From contig JAIPJH010000017.1 of NCBI GenBank assembly GCA_021734245.1, positions 1-39,696 of the forward strand: a stretch of DNA of 39,696 nt, written 5' to 3'. Source of the stretch: Candidatus Cloacimonadota bacterium. Lineage in GTDB: Bacteria > Cloacimonadota > Cloacimonadia > Cloacimonadales > TCS61. Every line of letters begins with the position of its first letter. Position 1 is the first letter of the stretch. The position numbers and the translations under genes are program-made. A model generated the notes under the pieces. That model was not told the DNA's origin and ran no database searches. It worked only from the letters and a program-made list of their open reading frames with translations. Positions 20,050 to 24,370 of this stretch are shown one piece after another.

Positions 20050-20718
20050 ATGAAAAAAATTATTTTGTTTGCTACAATTCTAGTTATTATTTCATGTTCA
20101 CATTTTAACAACATCAGTGAACCCTACCGTAATACTGTTATTGAAAACAAATCTCTAGCAATATCTCAATTCGACATCAAATTAGATGTAGATGAAAGCT
20201 ATTTGAAGTTTTTTCAAAACGGAGACGTTAAAAAAAATGTAATAGATTATGTAATGTTTACTTTCAATGATAATTTCATGAACACTTCCACCTTCAAGAC
20301 AGTAGAAATTGTTGATATTGATAAAAGTGATTTTGAAAATAGATCGTATAAAGCTAAAGATGAGTTTGAAATGCTTACTCCTATTAATGGTTCGACAGTT
20401 AAATCAAACTCCACTTACGATTTTGTAATGATCATTCAAGATTTTGAGATACACTCAAAAGAAGGTTCCAGTTCATCTGGTGTATATTCAGGTGGAAGTT
20501 GGAGTGGTGGAGGAAATTTTCCTCCAACTATTAATGCAAAATTCAAATATCTAATTTGGGACAATAATAATAAACAAATTGTTCTTTTTGGAGAATCTTC
20601 TTCTATTGCAGCAATAACATCTGAAGATGAAAGTCCTTGGTTTGAATTAGTTTCAAAAGCTTCTCGTAAAACAATCAAGAAAACACCTTTTGACAAATAT
20701 CCTAACATGATGTATTAA
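20050..20718 (+). CDS. Predicted lipoprotein, unknown function
   Basis: A 222-aa protein with a lipoprotein signal: MKKIILFATILVIISC, lipobox VIISC, lipidated Cys16. ATG 20050 is chosen because AAAGGAG lies at a good distance and because the signal peptide starts there; an upstream ATG at 20014 would bury it. The mature protein is acidic and has a Ser/Gly-rich stretch near residues 137-157 (SSSSGVYSGGSWSGGG) before a beta-rich C-terminus. It is probably anchored in the envelope. The stop overlaps the mtnA start (TAATGA), although no functional link is evident. Confidence 0.75.
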   Translation: MKKIILFATILVIISCSHFNNISEPYRNTVIENKSLAISQFDIKLDVDESYLKFFQNGDVKKNVIDYVMFTFNDNFMNTSTFKTVEIVDIDKSDFENRSYKAKDEFEMLTPINGSTVKSNSTYDFVMIIQDFEIHSKEGSSSSGVYSGGSWSGGGNFPPTINAKFKYLIWDNNNKQIVLFGESSSIAAITSEDESPWFELVSKASRKTIKKTPFDKYPNMMY

Positions 20719-21815
20719 TGATAGTTAACGGCAAAAACTACCGCACAGTTTGGATGGAAGACAAATCTGTATTCCTGATCGAACAAAATCTGTTACCTTT
20801 CAATTTTGACATTTTCGAATCAAATTGTTATAAGCAAACCTGTTTGGCAATAAAAGATATGTTAGTCCGTGGAGCCGGAGCAATAGGTTCTGCTGCAGGT
20901 TTTGCCATGGCTCAAGCTTTTCTGCAAGCGCCGGAAGATGGTTTCTGGGAATTTGTGGAAAAGGCAAAATTAGAGATAGAAAAAACCAGACCAACTGCCC
21001 AGAATTTATTTCACGCCACAAATCAAGTTTTTGATGCTGCCAGAAAATCTACACACCCCACTCCGGTTGCCACCGGAGCACCCCTCTCGAGAGGGGAATT
21101 GGAACATCTACAAAAAATAGCTGTAAAGAAGGCGCAGGCTGTCGCCGACAAAGATGCTGAAGATTCCCGTAAAATTGGAAAATTCGGCAATGAACTGATC
21201 AAAGATGATTTCAGAATATTAACTCACTGCAACGCTGGTTGGCTGGCTTTCACGGATTTCGGAACTGCTCTCTCCCCTATTTATTCTGCTCATCGATCAG
21301 GTAAAAATATTTTTGTATATGTGGATGAAACTCGTCCACGCAGTCAGGGAGCCCGTTTAACTGCCTGGGAACTGAAAAATGAAAATATTCCACACGTAAT
21401 AGTTCCTGATAATGCTGCTGCTCATCTGATGCAGCAAAGCAAGATCGATCTGGTGATCGTAGGAGCGGATAGAATTGCTGCCAATGGTGATGTAGCAAAC
21501 AAGATCGGAACTCTGGAAAAAGCTATTTGTGCCAGAGAATTCAGCATTCCTTTTTTTGTTGCTGCTCCTTCTTCCACTTTTGATATTGAATGCCCAACCG
21601 GAAAAGATATACCAATTGAGGAACGTTCCCAGGAAGAAGTTCTTTATCAAAAAGGTTTGGATCAAAAAGGTCAAATACGCAAAATCCTAGTTTGTTCTCC
21701 AGGTTCACAAGCTTACAATCCTGCTTTCGACGTAACTCCTGCAAAATATATCACAGGAATTATAACAGAAAAAGGAATTGTGAAACCAGAGAACATATCG
21801 AAAATCCCCTCTTGA
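20718..21815 (+). CDS. mtnA: S-methyl-5-thioribose-1-phosphate isomerase with an in-frame repeat insertion
   Basis: A 365-aa member of the eIF2B-like isomerase family, which converts methylthioribose-1-phosphate to methylthioribulose-1-phosphate in methionine salvage. Conserved parts are LVRGAGAIGSAAG (residues 49-61), THCNAG with the catalytic Cys171, and GADRIAANGDVANKIGT with the catalytic Asp251. Residues 112-127 (THPTPVATGAPLSRGE) are encoded by a copy of the palindromic element at 21051-21100 and have no counterpart in the family. They fall in a helix-connecting region between domains. The last residues and the TGA stop also come from a second copy of this element. Both catalytic residues are intact, so it is probably active. 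Confidence 0.9.
   Translation: MIVNGKNYRTVWMEDKSVFLIEQNLLPFNFDIFESNCYKQTCLAIKDMLVRGAGAIGSAAGFAMAQAFLQAPEDGFWEFVEKAKLEIEKTRPTAQNLFHATNQVFDAARKSTHPTPVATGAPLSRGELEHLQKIAVKKAQAVADKDAEDSRKIGKFGNELIKDDFRILTHCNAGWLAFTDFGTALSPIYSAHRSGKNIFVYVDETRPRSQGARLTAWELKNENIPHVIVPDNAAAHLMQQSKIDLVIVGADRIAANGDVANKIGTLEKAICAREFSIPFFVAAPSSTFDIECPTGKDIPIEERSQEEVLYQKGLDQKGQIRKILVCSPGSQAYNPAFDVTPAKYITGIITEKGIVKPENISKIPS
21051..21100 (+). repeat. Palindromic element copy inside mtnA (coding)
   Basis: The element has three parts: ACACACCCC (21051-21059), a variable hairpin CTCCGG-ttgcca-CCGGAG, and the invariant palindrome CCCCTCTCGAGAGGGG (21081-21096), ending in AATT. It is in frame and adds 16 residues to MtnA. The same architecture is found at 21804-21848, 21852-21897 and 22248-22290. 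Confidence 0.9.
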
Positions 21816-21897
21816 GAGGGGTCACCAGCTTGTCTGGTCGGGGTGTGTAAAATCCCCTCTTGAGAGGGGTGGATTCCAAAGGAAGACGGGGTGTGTA
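21804..21897 (-). repeat. Two tandem copies of the palindromic element upstream of the DUF559 domain
   Basis: Two direct copies (21804-21848 and 21852-21897) each begin with ATCCCCTCTTGAGAGGGGT and end with GGGGTGTGT. They are inverted relative to the copies at 21051 and 22248. The variable hairpins differ: ACCAG/CTGGT in the first and TTCC/GGAA in the second. The first copy provides the final codons and TGA of mtnA. The second ends two bases before the ATG at 21900 and supplies the purine-rich stretch that would serve as ribosome-binding site. Confidence 0.9.
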
Positions 21898-21899
21898 AA

Positions 21900-22922
21900 A
21901 TGCATGATGTTCTAAAATACAACCCAAAACTAAAAGAACTAGCAAAAGAATTACGAAAAAACAGTACTTTATCGGAAGTTCTTCTTTGGCATGAGATCAA
22001 TAAAAATAAGCTTGGAGTTGATTTTCATCGTCAAAAACCTATTGGAAATTATATTGTAGATTTTTACTGCCCCAAATCAAAACTCGTTATTGAAGTCGAT
22101 GGAATATCTCATGCTGGAAAGTTGGAATATGATCAAAAAAGAGATGATTATTTAAACAAGATTGGTTTAACTGTAATCCATTTTTCTGATGAAGAAATAA
22201 AACAAAATTTGGTAAATGTAATAGAATATTTAAAAGATTGGATTGAAACACACCCCACGACTAAAGTCGCACCCCTCTCAAGAGGGGAATCTCACGCTCT
22301 AAGACTAAAGTCGCACTCCTCTCAAGAAAGGATTTACCAGGGCGTTAAATTCCATACAATATTCATTCAAAAAACTCCACCGAACCACAAAAATATCGAT
22401 GAACTGAAAAAATGGTGTAAGATTTTCCATGAAAAGAAATTGGCCCCACCTTATCCTGGTGGTTCTTTTGGAAATCTGAGTTTTGGAACAGATAATAATA
22501 CTTTCATAATAACCGGTTCCAGGATTGGTTTAAAATGTGATCTTGCAAATGATTGTTTCGTGGAAATCATTGATTGTGATTTTGAGAATCAAAACATAAA
22601 AGTAATTGGAACTCGCGAACCATCTTCTGAAACGATGTTACATGCGGTGATTTATAATAAACGAAAGGATGTGAAAGCAATTTTTCATGGTCATTCAGCC
22701 GAATTGCTGCAAAATGTAGAACAGCTCAAAATTCCCGCAACTAAAGAAGAAAAACCTTACGGAACCATGGAATTAGTCGAGTCGGTAATAGAAATAATTG
22801 ACAGAAACAACCTGATAATGATGAAGAACCACGGTTTTATAGCTGTGGGAAGAAATATGCAGGATGTGGGAAATTTGTTAATGAAAACCTTGCGGATGGT
22901 CGCAGACCTTCGCAATGGTTGA
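21900..22922 (+). CDS. Fusion of a DUF559 nuclease-like domain to a class II aldolase
   Basis: A 340-aa open frame with two unrelated parts. Residues 1-116 form a DUF559 domain (PD-(D/E)xK/Vsr-like): FHRQKPIGNYIVDFYC with Asp54, then LVIEVDG with Glu65 and Asp67. Residues 117-145 are encoded by one intact and one decayed copy of the palindromic element. Residues 146-340 are a class II aldolase/adducin domain: FGNLSF, PSSE with Glu244, FHGHS with His263 and His265, and KNHGF with His311 as zinc ligands. Beside mtnA the aldolase suits cleavage of methylthioribulose-1-phosphate (DHAP shunt) or an MtnB-like dehydratase. No ATG, GTG or TTG lies in frame between the repeat and the aldolase core, so the aldolase seems to be made only as this fusion. 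Confidence 0.8.
   Translation: MHDVLKYNPKLKELAKELRKNSTLSEVLLWHEINKNKLGVDFHRQKPIGNYIVDFYCPKSKLVIEVDGISHAGKLEYDQKRDDYLNKIGLTVIHFSDEEIKQNLVNVIEYLKDWIETHPTTKVAPLSRGESHALRLKSHSSQERIYQGVKFHTIFIQKTPPNHKNIDELKKWCKIFHEKKLAPPYPGGSFGNLSFGTDNNTFIITGSRIGLKCDLANDCFVEIIDCDFENQNIKVIGTREPSSETMLHAVIYNKRKDVKAIFHGHSAELLQNVEQLKIPATKEEKPYGTMELVESVIEIIDRNNLIMMKNHGFIAVGRNMQDVGNLLMKTLRMVADLRNG
22248..22335 (+). repeat. Palindromic element, one intact and one decayed copy, inside the fusion gene
   Basis: The intact copy (22248-22290) reads ACACACCCC, the hairpin CGACTAAAGTCG, then CCCCTCTCAAGAGGGG and AAT. The next 45 nt repeat the pattern with mutations (GACTAAAGTC, then CTCCTCTCAAGAAAGG), which breaks the palindrome. 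Both are read through in frame and encode the linker THPTTKVAPLSRGE plus the following 15 residues. Orientation is opposite to the pair upstream of the DUF559 domain, so the domain is bracketed by inverted copies. Confidence 0.88.
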
Positions 22923-23007
22923 ACTGGTCATTGGTGAACTGGTCATTGGTGAATTGGTCATTGGTAAATTGGTCATTGGTAAATTGGTCACTGGTGAATT
23001 GGTGATC
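22917..23007 (+). repeat. 15-bp tandem array, five units, inverted relative to the 16674 array
   Basis: Units of TGGTCATTGGTGAAC begin at 22925, 22940, 22955, 22970 and 22985, with partial copies at both ends. They are the reverse complement of the units after the S23 gene. The array starts at the last codons of the aldolase fusion. It is followed by GATCAAAAAATAAT (from 23003), which also occurs at the 3' end of the S23 gene (from 16661). This could be the tail of a deleted S23 cassette. Confidence 0.88.
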
Positions 23008-23041
23008 AAAAAATAATAAAATTGGAAAAAGGAAAAAACTT

Positions 23042-24370
23042 TTGAAAAAGATAGATCTATTAATAAAAAACGGATTGATCTTAACTTACGACAAAAACCC
23101 TGAAATCAGCAGTATCGCTGTGAATTCAGGAAAGATCATCGAAATCGATAAAATTGATAAATTAGAAAAGAAATACGCTCCCAGCCAGACTATTGATGCT
23201 GAAGATAAAATCGTAATGCCTGGTTTTGTAAACACACACACTCATGCCGGAATGATCTATTTTAAAGGAATGGCAGATGATCTGCCATTAATGGATTGGC
23301 TTTCCAATCACATCTGGCCGGCCGAAAGTCATTTCCTGAAAAAAGAGTTTATGAAAGATGCCGCTTTACACGGATGTGCCGAAATGATCAAAAATGGCAT
23401 CACAACTTTCAATGACATGTATTTTTTTGGCAATGAAGTTGCCGAATCTGCCGAGAAAGTTGGTATCAGAGCAGTATTGGGCGAAGTTGTTCTGGATACT
23501 TCAGTAGCAAATTGTTCAACTGCCGATGAAATTTTTTCCTACACAAAAATGATGCATTCCAAATATAAAGATTCAGAACTGATCGATGTGGCAGTTGCTC
23601 CACATGCAATTTACACAGTCAGCAAAGAAAACCTGATAAAATCAGCAGAACTTGCAGAAAAATTGGGTGTTACACTTCATATTCACATTTCCGAGACTCA
23701 CCAGGAAGTGGAAGATTGCATTCAGAAAACTGGTAAGCGACCTGTGGAATATCTTGATTCAATTGGATTTTTCCGCAGTCCGGTTTTAACTGCTCATGCC
23801 ATTTGGCTGGATGAAAACGAACATAACATTCTGGCAAAACATGGAGCATCAATAGCAATAAATACCAGCAGCAATCTTAAGCTCGCTTCCGGTTTTGATT
23901 CGTTTGCATCTTATCTAAAAAAAGGAATAAACTTAAGCATTGGAACTGATGGCGTAGCCAGCAATAATAATCTGAGCTTATTGGAAGAGATCAGTTTAAC
24001 TTCCAAACTGCAGAAAGCATTGAATAACGATCCGACAATTCTTCCAGCCAAACAGATGATCGAAATAGCAACTCTGGGTGGAACAAAAGCACTTTTGAAA
24101 GACAAAGAGATCGGATCAATCGAGATCGGCAAGAAAGCTGATCTGCTTTTGATAGAAACAAACAGCCTGGAAGCCCAACCTATGTACAATCCATTTTCTC
24201 ATCTCGTTTATACATTCACATCCGAAAGCATCAAAGACGTGATTATCAATGGGAAAATTGTTATGAAGAATAGAAAACTAACAACCCTCGACGAAGCTGA
24301 ATTGCTGGATAAAGCAAAATTTTATCAAAAAAAAATCATCGCATTTAATAAGAAAAATCACACCAGTTAA
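23042..24370 (+). CDS. mtaD: 5-methylthioadenosine/S-adenosylhomocysteine deaminase
   Basis: A 442-aa amidohydrolase of the TRZ/ATZ type that deaminates methylthioadenosine or S-adenosylhomocysteine to the inosine derivative. Metal ligands are visible: His66 and His68 (VNTHTHAG), His213/His215 (HIHISETH), His252 (AHAIWL) and Asp303 (SIGTDGVASNNN). The PLMDWLSNHIWPAE segment is typical of MtaD. It starts with TTG at 23042, with AAGGAAAA upstream. Together with MtnA and the aldolase it forms an MTA salvage set that would need a separate methylthioinosine phosphorylase, not seen here. Confidence 0.88.
   Translation: MKKIDLLIKNGLILTYDKNPEISSIAVNSGKIIEIDKIDKLEKKYAPSQTIDAEDKIVMPGFVNTHTHAGMIYFKGMADDLPLMDWLSNHIWPAESHFLKKEFMKDAALHGCAEMIKNGITTFNDMYFFGNEVAESAEKVGIRAVLGEVVLDTSVANCSTADEIFSYTKMMHSKYKDSELIDVAVAPHAIYTVSKENLIKSAELAEKLGVTLHIHISETHQEVEDCIQKTGKRPVEYLDSIGFFRSPVLTAHAIWLDENEHNILAKHGASIAINTSSNLKLASGFDSFASYLKKGINLSIGTDGVASNNNLSLLEEISLTSKLQKALNNDPTILPAKQMIEIATLGGTKALLKDKEIGSIEIGKKADLLLIETNSLEAQPMYNPFSHLVYTFTSESIKDVIINGKIVMKNRKLTTLDEAELLDKAKFYQKKIIAFNKKNHTS

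Follow-up and report, generated by a model that had tools for sequence, protein, structure and literature searches.

In a Candidatus Cloacimonadota bacterium, a single open reading frame joins a DUF559 nuclease domain, through a linker coded by inverted copies of a palindromic repeat, to a class II aldolase that has no start codon of its own, and the same fusion is found in two other species. The explanation that best accounts for the whole of the evidence, to which we assign a probability of roughly three in four, is that a palindrome-flanked DUF559 element was inserted at this place and would now persist as a conserved N-terminal fusion to the aldolase. The stretch analysed, called here the window, has 39,696 nucleotides and corresponds to contig C17 of a genome of 3.1 Mb (G000); this genome and those compared with it are metagenome-assembled drafts.

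The fused frame and its surroundings

The frame runs from GTG 21891 or ATG 21903 to the stop codon at 22922 (343 codons from the GTG), and lies between mtnA and an amidohydrolase gene (Table 1). Counting from ATG 21903, Pfam places DUF559 (PF04480) at residues 9-110, with 109 bits against a curated cut-off of 20.6 and profile positions 2-104 of 109 covered, so that the domain is present as a whole, and Aldolase_II (PF00596) at residues 171-322, with 61 bits against a cut-off of 22.2 and the metal-binding histidines of class II aldolases/adducins kept. The nuclease part also matches PDB 3hrl, a solved endonuclease-like protein, at 3e-21, and the motif HRQK..GxYIVDFY..LVIExDGxSH is invariant among the fused DUF559 copies; by homology, it would be expected to cut DNA. 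In the alignment of aldolase homologues, the SSE, HGH and later HGF histidine positions are invariant, and Foldseek shows a structural resemblance to FucA and to the radical-SAM by-product aldolase of Bacillus thuringiensis (6btg, 6btd). This likeness would fit the adjoining mtnA and deaminase genes, as well as the DHAP-shunt and 5-deoxyribose salvage pathways (PMC10986504, PMC6079011). In the AlphaFold model of the fused protein, both domains are predicted with confidence and the linker between them is disordered (pLDDT below 50 at residues 121-146); a single-sequence model of DUF559 alone reached a pLDDT of 53 and was set aside.

Table 1. Positions of the features discussed (window coordinates unless a locus is given)
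Feature	Position	Strand	Evidence or remark
mtnA (S-methyl-5-thioribose-1-phosphate isomerase)	20718..21815	+	NCBIfam NF004326 4.7e-120, TIGR00512 1.6e-114
Solo two-stem repeat, in frame within mtnA	21053..21096	-	pattern match; +17 residues, ..THPTPVATGAPLSRGE..
Upstream repeat copy 1	21806..21846	+	CCCCTCT-TG-AGAGGGG palindrome, variable second stem, GGGGTGT
Upstream repeat copy 2	21854..21894	+	end GGGGTGTGT, then AAA-ATG of DUF559; possible ribosome-binding site
DUF559 domain (Vsr-like PD-(D/E)XK-type endonuclease)	21903..22247	+	PF04480 1.4e-31; GTG 21891 = alternative start
Downstream repeat copy, inverted orientation	22250..22287	-	reads in frame as THPTTKVAPLSRGE
Second downstream repeat copy, degenerate	22289..22331	-	reads in frame as SHALRLKSHSSQER; disordered linker ends here
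Class II aldolase (FucA/DrdA-like) without own start codon	22335..22922	+	PF00596 1.6e-16; alignment with native-start homologues; Foldseek 4c24, 6btg
Next salvage gene, amidohydrolase of MTA/SAH/5'-deoxyadenosine deaminase type	23042..24370	+	NCBIfam NF006549 7.9e-140, under the model's curated cut-off
G024 HsdR and HsdM with DUF559 insertions	L296:541-4317 and L296:8732-10912	- / -
G033 HsdM with in-frame DUF559, position unlike G024's	L298:1228-3186	+
G025 HsdS, DUF559 after first specificity domain	L297:868-1920	+

A preliminary description of the window, made from its letters, had proposed that the frame is open from the nuclease domain through the repeat linker into the aldolase, and that ATG, GTG and TTG are all missing between the repeat and the aldolase core. 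Both statements hold. The frame is open throughout 21891-22922, the last in-frame canonical start within DUF559 is TTG 22209 and the next one is TTG 22440, at the conserved APPYPGG core; from 22212 to 22440 there is none, which leaves the linker and the first 35 aldolase codons without a start. Taken from the window alone, an open linker is not improbable by chance, with a probability of about 0.5 for its 29 codons in a Markov simulation, to be multiplied by 1/3 for the right frame.

The repeats also touch mtnA, whose stop codon, TGA 21813, falls within the first upstream copy, and whose 17-residue insertion, coded by the solo repeat, is missing from the other MtnA homologues aligned. A second repeat family is present 3' of the aldolase stop as a tandem TGGTCATTGGTGAAC-type repeat (22919-23010), and the genome contains about 18 places that resemble it.

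Orthologous fusions, empty sites and a scar

In a search of 40 genomes of the family, the DUF559-aldolase fusion was found again, with its junction at the identical codon (..I-Y-Q-G-V-K-F), in G002, of the same genus (L010, 1024-2082; aldolase 72% identical to that of the window), and in G043, of another genus (L037, 853-2085). DUF559, linker and aldolase are free of stop codons in G000, G002 and G043, and in each of the three species the linker is open solely in the frame that leads from DUF559 to the aldolase. Because three species keep this frame without stops, the fusion goes beyond chance, and the comparison rules out a fortuitous open frame, for which the window by itself would be insufficient. 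A sequencing frameshift, which the preliminary description had named as its possible undoing, is very unlikely and was likewise discarded, since the fusion is shared by two further species and the three assemblies are separate. Thus, the proposal that read-through of the repeat joins a nuclease to a start-less aldolase is supported by the presence of the same frame in G002 and G043.

The linker repeats have been remodelled, with G000 and G002 using one frame of the first downstream repeat (THPTTKV / THPPAKA) and G043 a different one, by way of tandem 51-nt copies (HTPSFRKTKIHPSQE); linker length differs between species. Under neutrality, about 7 stops would be expected over DUF559 and the linker (about 155 codons, at a dS near 2, which is saturated), and the probability of finding none is about 0.001. 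Between G000 and G002, dN/dS is 0.10 for DUF559, 0.07 for the aldolase and 0.05 for mtnA, ratios that are approximate because dS is saturated. The two domains have diverged in parallel (72/63/70% for DUF559 versus 72/61/65% for the aldolase). In the DUF559 tree, the three fusions do not separate from the type IIG, G002-C6 and G023-C11 copies, with which they form an open six-member fork (91/83). The comparison of species goes beyond the preliminary description and indicates that the fusion is old and maintained by purifying selection rather than an accident of one genome. The strong conservation of DUF559 suggests that the nuclease fold is still needed, whether for enzymatic activity or as a stable domain at the N-terminus.

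In G043, the open frame has its first ATG, GTG or TTG no earlier than residue 46, inside DUF559; GGGAGG followed by ATA ATA is present, and a GTG occurs within the linker. A frameshift or an ATA start may explain the missing start. In the same locus (L037:853-1000), the mtnA stop overlaps the DUF559-aldolase frame by 11 nt.

The junction had also to be compared with that of relatives without the insert, and these, which are other species, have a separate and intact aldolase start. In G020, the aldolase begins ATG AAT AAA AAA TCT ATT TAT CAA GGC, overlapping the mtnA stop, and in G005 it begins TTG CAA TAT CAG GGC, with the start two codons upstream of the homology. Among the best 80 aldolase loci in 84,980 genomes, the aldolase is fused in G002, G043 and G042 only, and in nearly all of the other 77 or so a canonical start precedes the homology by 1-10 codons. 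The case of G042, which belongs to the genus of G043, is different (L038/L093): the mtnA frame continues through a palindrome scar, TCC TCT CAA GAA GGG ATT TAT, into the aldolase, and no nuclease is present. Its product could be a bifunctional MtnA-aldolase salvage enzyme. The simplest order of events would be that a state like that of G043 came first and the element was then lost, although the scar may instead represent a state preceding the insertion.

Taking these data together, the following course is proposed. In an ancestor shared by two or more Cloacimonadota genera, a palindrome-flanked, Vsr-like DUF559 endonuclease element would have entered between mtnA and the aldolase, parting the aldolase from its ATG, which formerly lay across the mtnA stop. 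As one frame of the downstream repeat is free of stops, DUF559, linker and aldolase came to lie in a single frame, and the aldolase would be produced as the C-terminal part of a nuclease-linker-aldolase protein of about 339 residues, with a disordered linker of about 26. Initiation would occur at ATG 21903 or GTG 21891, the repeat end GGGGTGTGTAAAATG presumably providing both ribosome-binding site and start. Purifying selection would keep the fusion, which may have been retained for want of any other start for the aldolase, whereas in G042 the element would have gone, leaving a palindrome scar through which MtnA runs into the aldolase. Movement of the element or its repeats may be driven by the nuclease or by the palindromes, along a homing-like or REP-like route.

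It has to be considered whether the aldolase is translated on its own from a non-canonical start (ATT 22332, or ATA in G043), with no fusion protein and an open frame that is incidental. This had been foreseen as an outcome that would overturn the proposal, and it appears highly improbable. All inserted copies do have ATT or ATA at this place, after a purine-rich repeat end (AAGAAAGG / AAGAGGGG), and the DUF559 of G043 has no obvious start. However, ATT 22332 is a native internal isoleucine codon in the uninserted G020 homologue (MNKKS-I-YQG) and therefore gives no sign of evolving as a start; the purine run abuts the codon, with no Shine-Dalgarno spacing; three species keep the fusion frame as the sole one open; and the aldolase of G042 is instead continuous with MtnA. 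It is quite unlikely that the fusion is translated and then cut by a protease in the repeat linker, giving separate working enzymes: predicted disorder and variable length would suit such a process, but no conserved cleavage motif was seen in the linker. As for a dying aldolase pseudogene deprived of its start by the insertion, the missing start codon is all that speaks for a reading made scarcely credible by the invariant active-site positions, by a dN/dS of about 0.07 between two species that both carry the insertion, and by the absence of stops from every copy. Two splicing elements were also tried and rejected, a group I/II self-splicing intron (no Rfam match with E up to 0.5 at six loci) and an intein (no Hint domain, Pfam finding just DUF559 and host domains). 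With no intron RNA and no Hint domain, the element is therefore not predicted to splice.

The palindromic repeat and other DUF559 copies

The repeat consists of two stems, a CCCCTCT-n-AGAGGGG palindrome and a variable second stem, followed by GGGGTGT. The variants of the second stem stay self-complementary (CGGCTTTAGCCG, CGACTTTAGTCG, ACCAGCTTGTCTGGT and others). A pattern search for exact two-stem copies returned 23 in G000 and 29 in G002, and the reversed control pattern returned none in any genome searched. When the G000 copies were examined by stretches, most were not covered by any long frame, and one was the copy in frame in mtnA.

The repeats that flank DUF559 face each other. CT/AG palindromes occur on both sides, within 250 nt, in 37 of 62 DUF559 genes, and in none of 100 control ORFs (0/68 from the same loci, 0/32 from the window), a contrast that is descriptive because the palindrome was defined after the repeats had been seen. 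A simple best-inverted-repeat score separates the two groups poorly (3/65 versus 1/45 controls at a strict cut-off). Most of the DUF559 copies seen here are stand-alone frames of about 120-170 codons. The selfish-type gene recognised in the window is part of a wider class of palindrome-flanked DUF559 genes, whose members are also found in restriction-modification genes.

The type IIG restriction-methyltransferase of G020 (L083) has DUF559 and repeats embedded in frame; an intact homologue, 67% identical, is present in G048, and in that of G043 the same point is occupied by a different insertion. In the G024 operon (L296), HsdR and HsdM each contain an in-frame DUF559, of different subfamilies and with different repeats, and the HsdM proteins of G024 and G033 are mutual empty sites. 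The HsdS of G025 probably carries a further in-frame insertion, with its downstream boundary unseen because the contig ends there. In all, there would be about six separate in-frame events in one bacterial order, five of them in restriction-modification genes, an apparent enrichment that was recognised in retrospect and is based on a small number of cases. When plasmids were searched with the HsdM junction, 167 records were returned and none covers at least 80% of the query, giving no second copy there. Three long DUF559 frames, those of G021 (1596 aa), G049 (1478 aa) and G020:C47 (275 aa), were left out of the count, as they have the appearance of ordinary proteins that are multidomain or divergent. 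Solo repeats occur in a type IIG-like restriction gene of G018:C22 (L261, 2018-2973), three of them in frame within a 1030-codon frame, and G043:C277 has one of the three at the same position.

The frequency of in-frame copies in restriction-modification genes, together with purifying selection on DUF559 at a fixed locus, could mean that the domain serves its host, for instance as a defence nuclease, and merely lies in repeats without being borne by a mobile element. This is unlikely; the empty sites, the scattered positions, the subfamilies with their own palindromes and the recurrent inverted palindromes in the flanks fit an element better.

Relation to known systems and significance

Unspliced palindromic repeats in frame in unrelated protein genes have been described as Rickettsia palindromic elements (RPE) and as the Wolbachia/Methanocaldococcus repeats (PMC10969869, PMC2996958). 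The present insertions resemble RPE in architecture, being palindromic, in frame and absent from homologues (in MtnA, the linker and restriction-modification genes). However, RPE are about 150 bp long and code for a short peptide, whereas the insertions described here have a whole nuclease domain between paired inverted repeats and bring the start codon with them. In REP/RAYT systems, the gene for a DNA-cutting enzyme lies between palindromes, with solo palindromes scattered over the genome (PMC2817692, PMC8266576). DUF559 genes likewise have inverted palindromes in their flanks and solo copies elsewhere, but RAYT is a tyrosine (HUH) transposase, whereas DUF559 is Vsr-like, of PD-(D/E)XK type and not HUH/Y1 (TnpA_REP); moreover, REPs are extragenic, and some of the copies found here are intragenic and in frame. 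The EDxHD family of homing endonucleases is also Vsr-like. The existence of this family is documented (PMC3943268, PMC6083498). As in inteins and homing systems, the nuclease is coded in frame inside a host protein, but here neither a Hint domain nor a known intron RNA was found, and the nuclease stays in the protein. The element thus appears to combine features of RPE, REP/RAYT and inteins, and lacks what defines the last two, an HUH transposase and splicing, respectively.

With respect to the DUF559/PF04480 family, in which most copies here stand alone, the window copy differs in being fused to an unrelated metabolic enzyme. The aldolase shares with the DHAP-shunt and 5-deoxyribose salvage aldolases (Ald2, DrdA; 6btg/6btd; PMC10986504, PMC6079011) a class II fold and the adjoining mtnA and deaminase genes, and differs from them in its N-terminal nuclease fusion; the likeness in substrate is putative. 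In the literature searched, mostly outside subscription journals, no description was found of a nuclease-coding version of in-frame palindromic repeats, and the titles and opening lines of abstracts on DUF559 mention neither flanking repeats nor in-frame mobility.

A more general proposal, which we advance tentatively and at somewhat less than even odds, is that Vsr-like DUF559 genes lying between inverted palindromes make up a class of mobile elements that insert in frame into host protein genes, are not spliced, persist as permanent domains and prefer restriction-modification genes, the mtnA-aldolase case being one of stable domestication across genera, as part of a chimeric salvage enzyme. 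If true, in-frame selfish DNA, so far known mainly as the short palindromic repeats of Rickettsia and a small number of other organisms, would extend to carriers of whole nucleases. The recurrent insertions in restriction-modification genes bear on how such enzymes acquire extra nuclease domains, and fusions of this type, which are easily mistaken for sequencing or gene-prediction errors, call for caution in annotation. The occurrence of one junction in empty, inserted and scar-only states constitutes a natural experiment in which the cost of the nuclease to a metabolic enzyme could be measured directly. In sum, if the proposal is true, mobile nucleases would have a way of turning into lasting parts of host enzymes.
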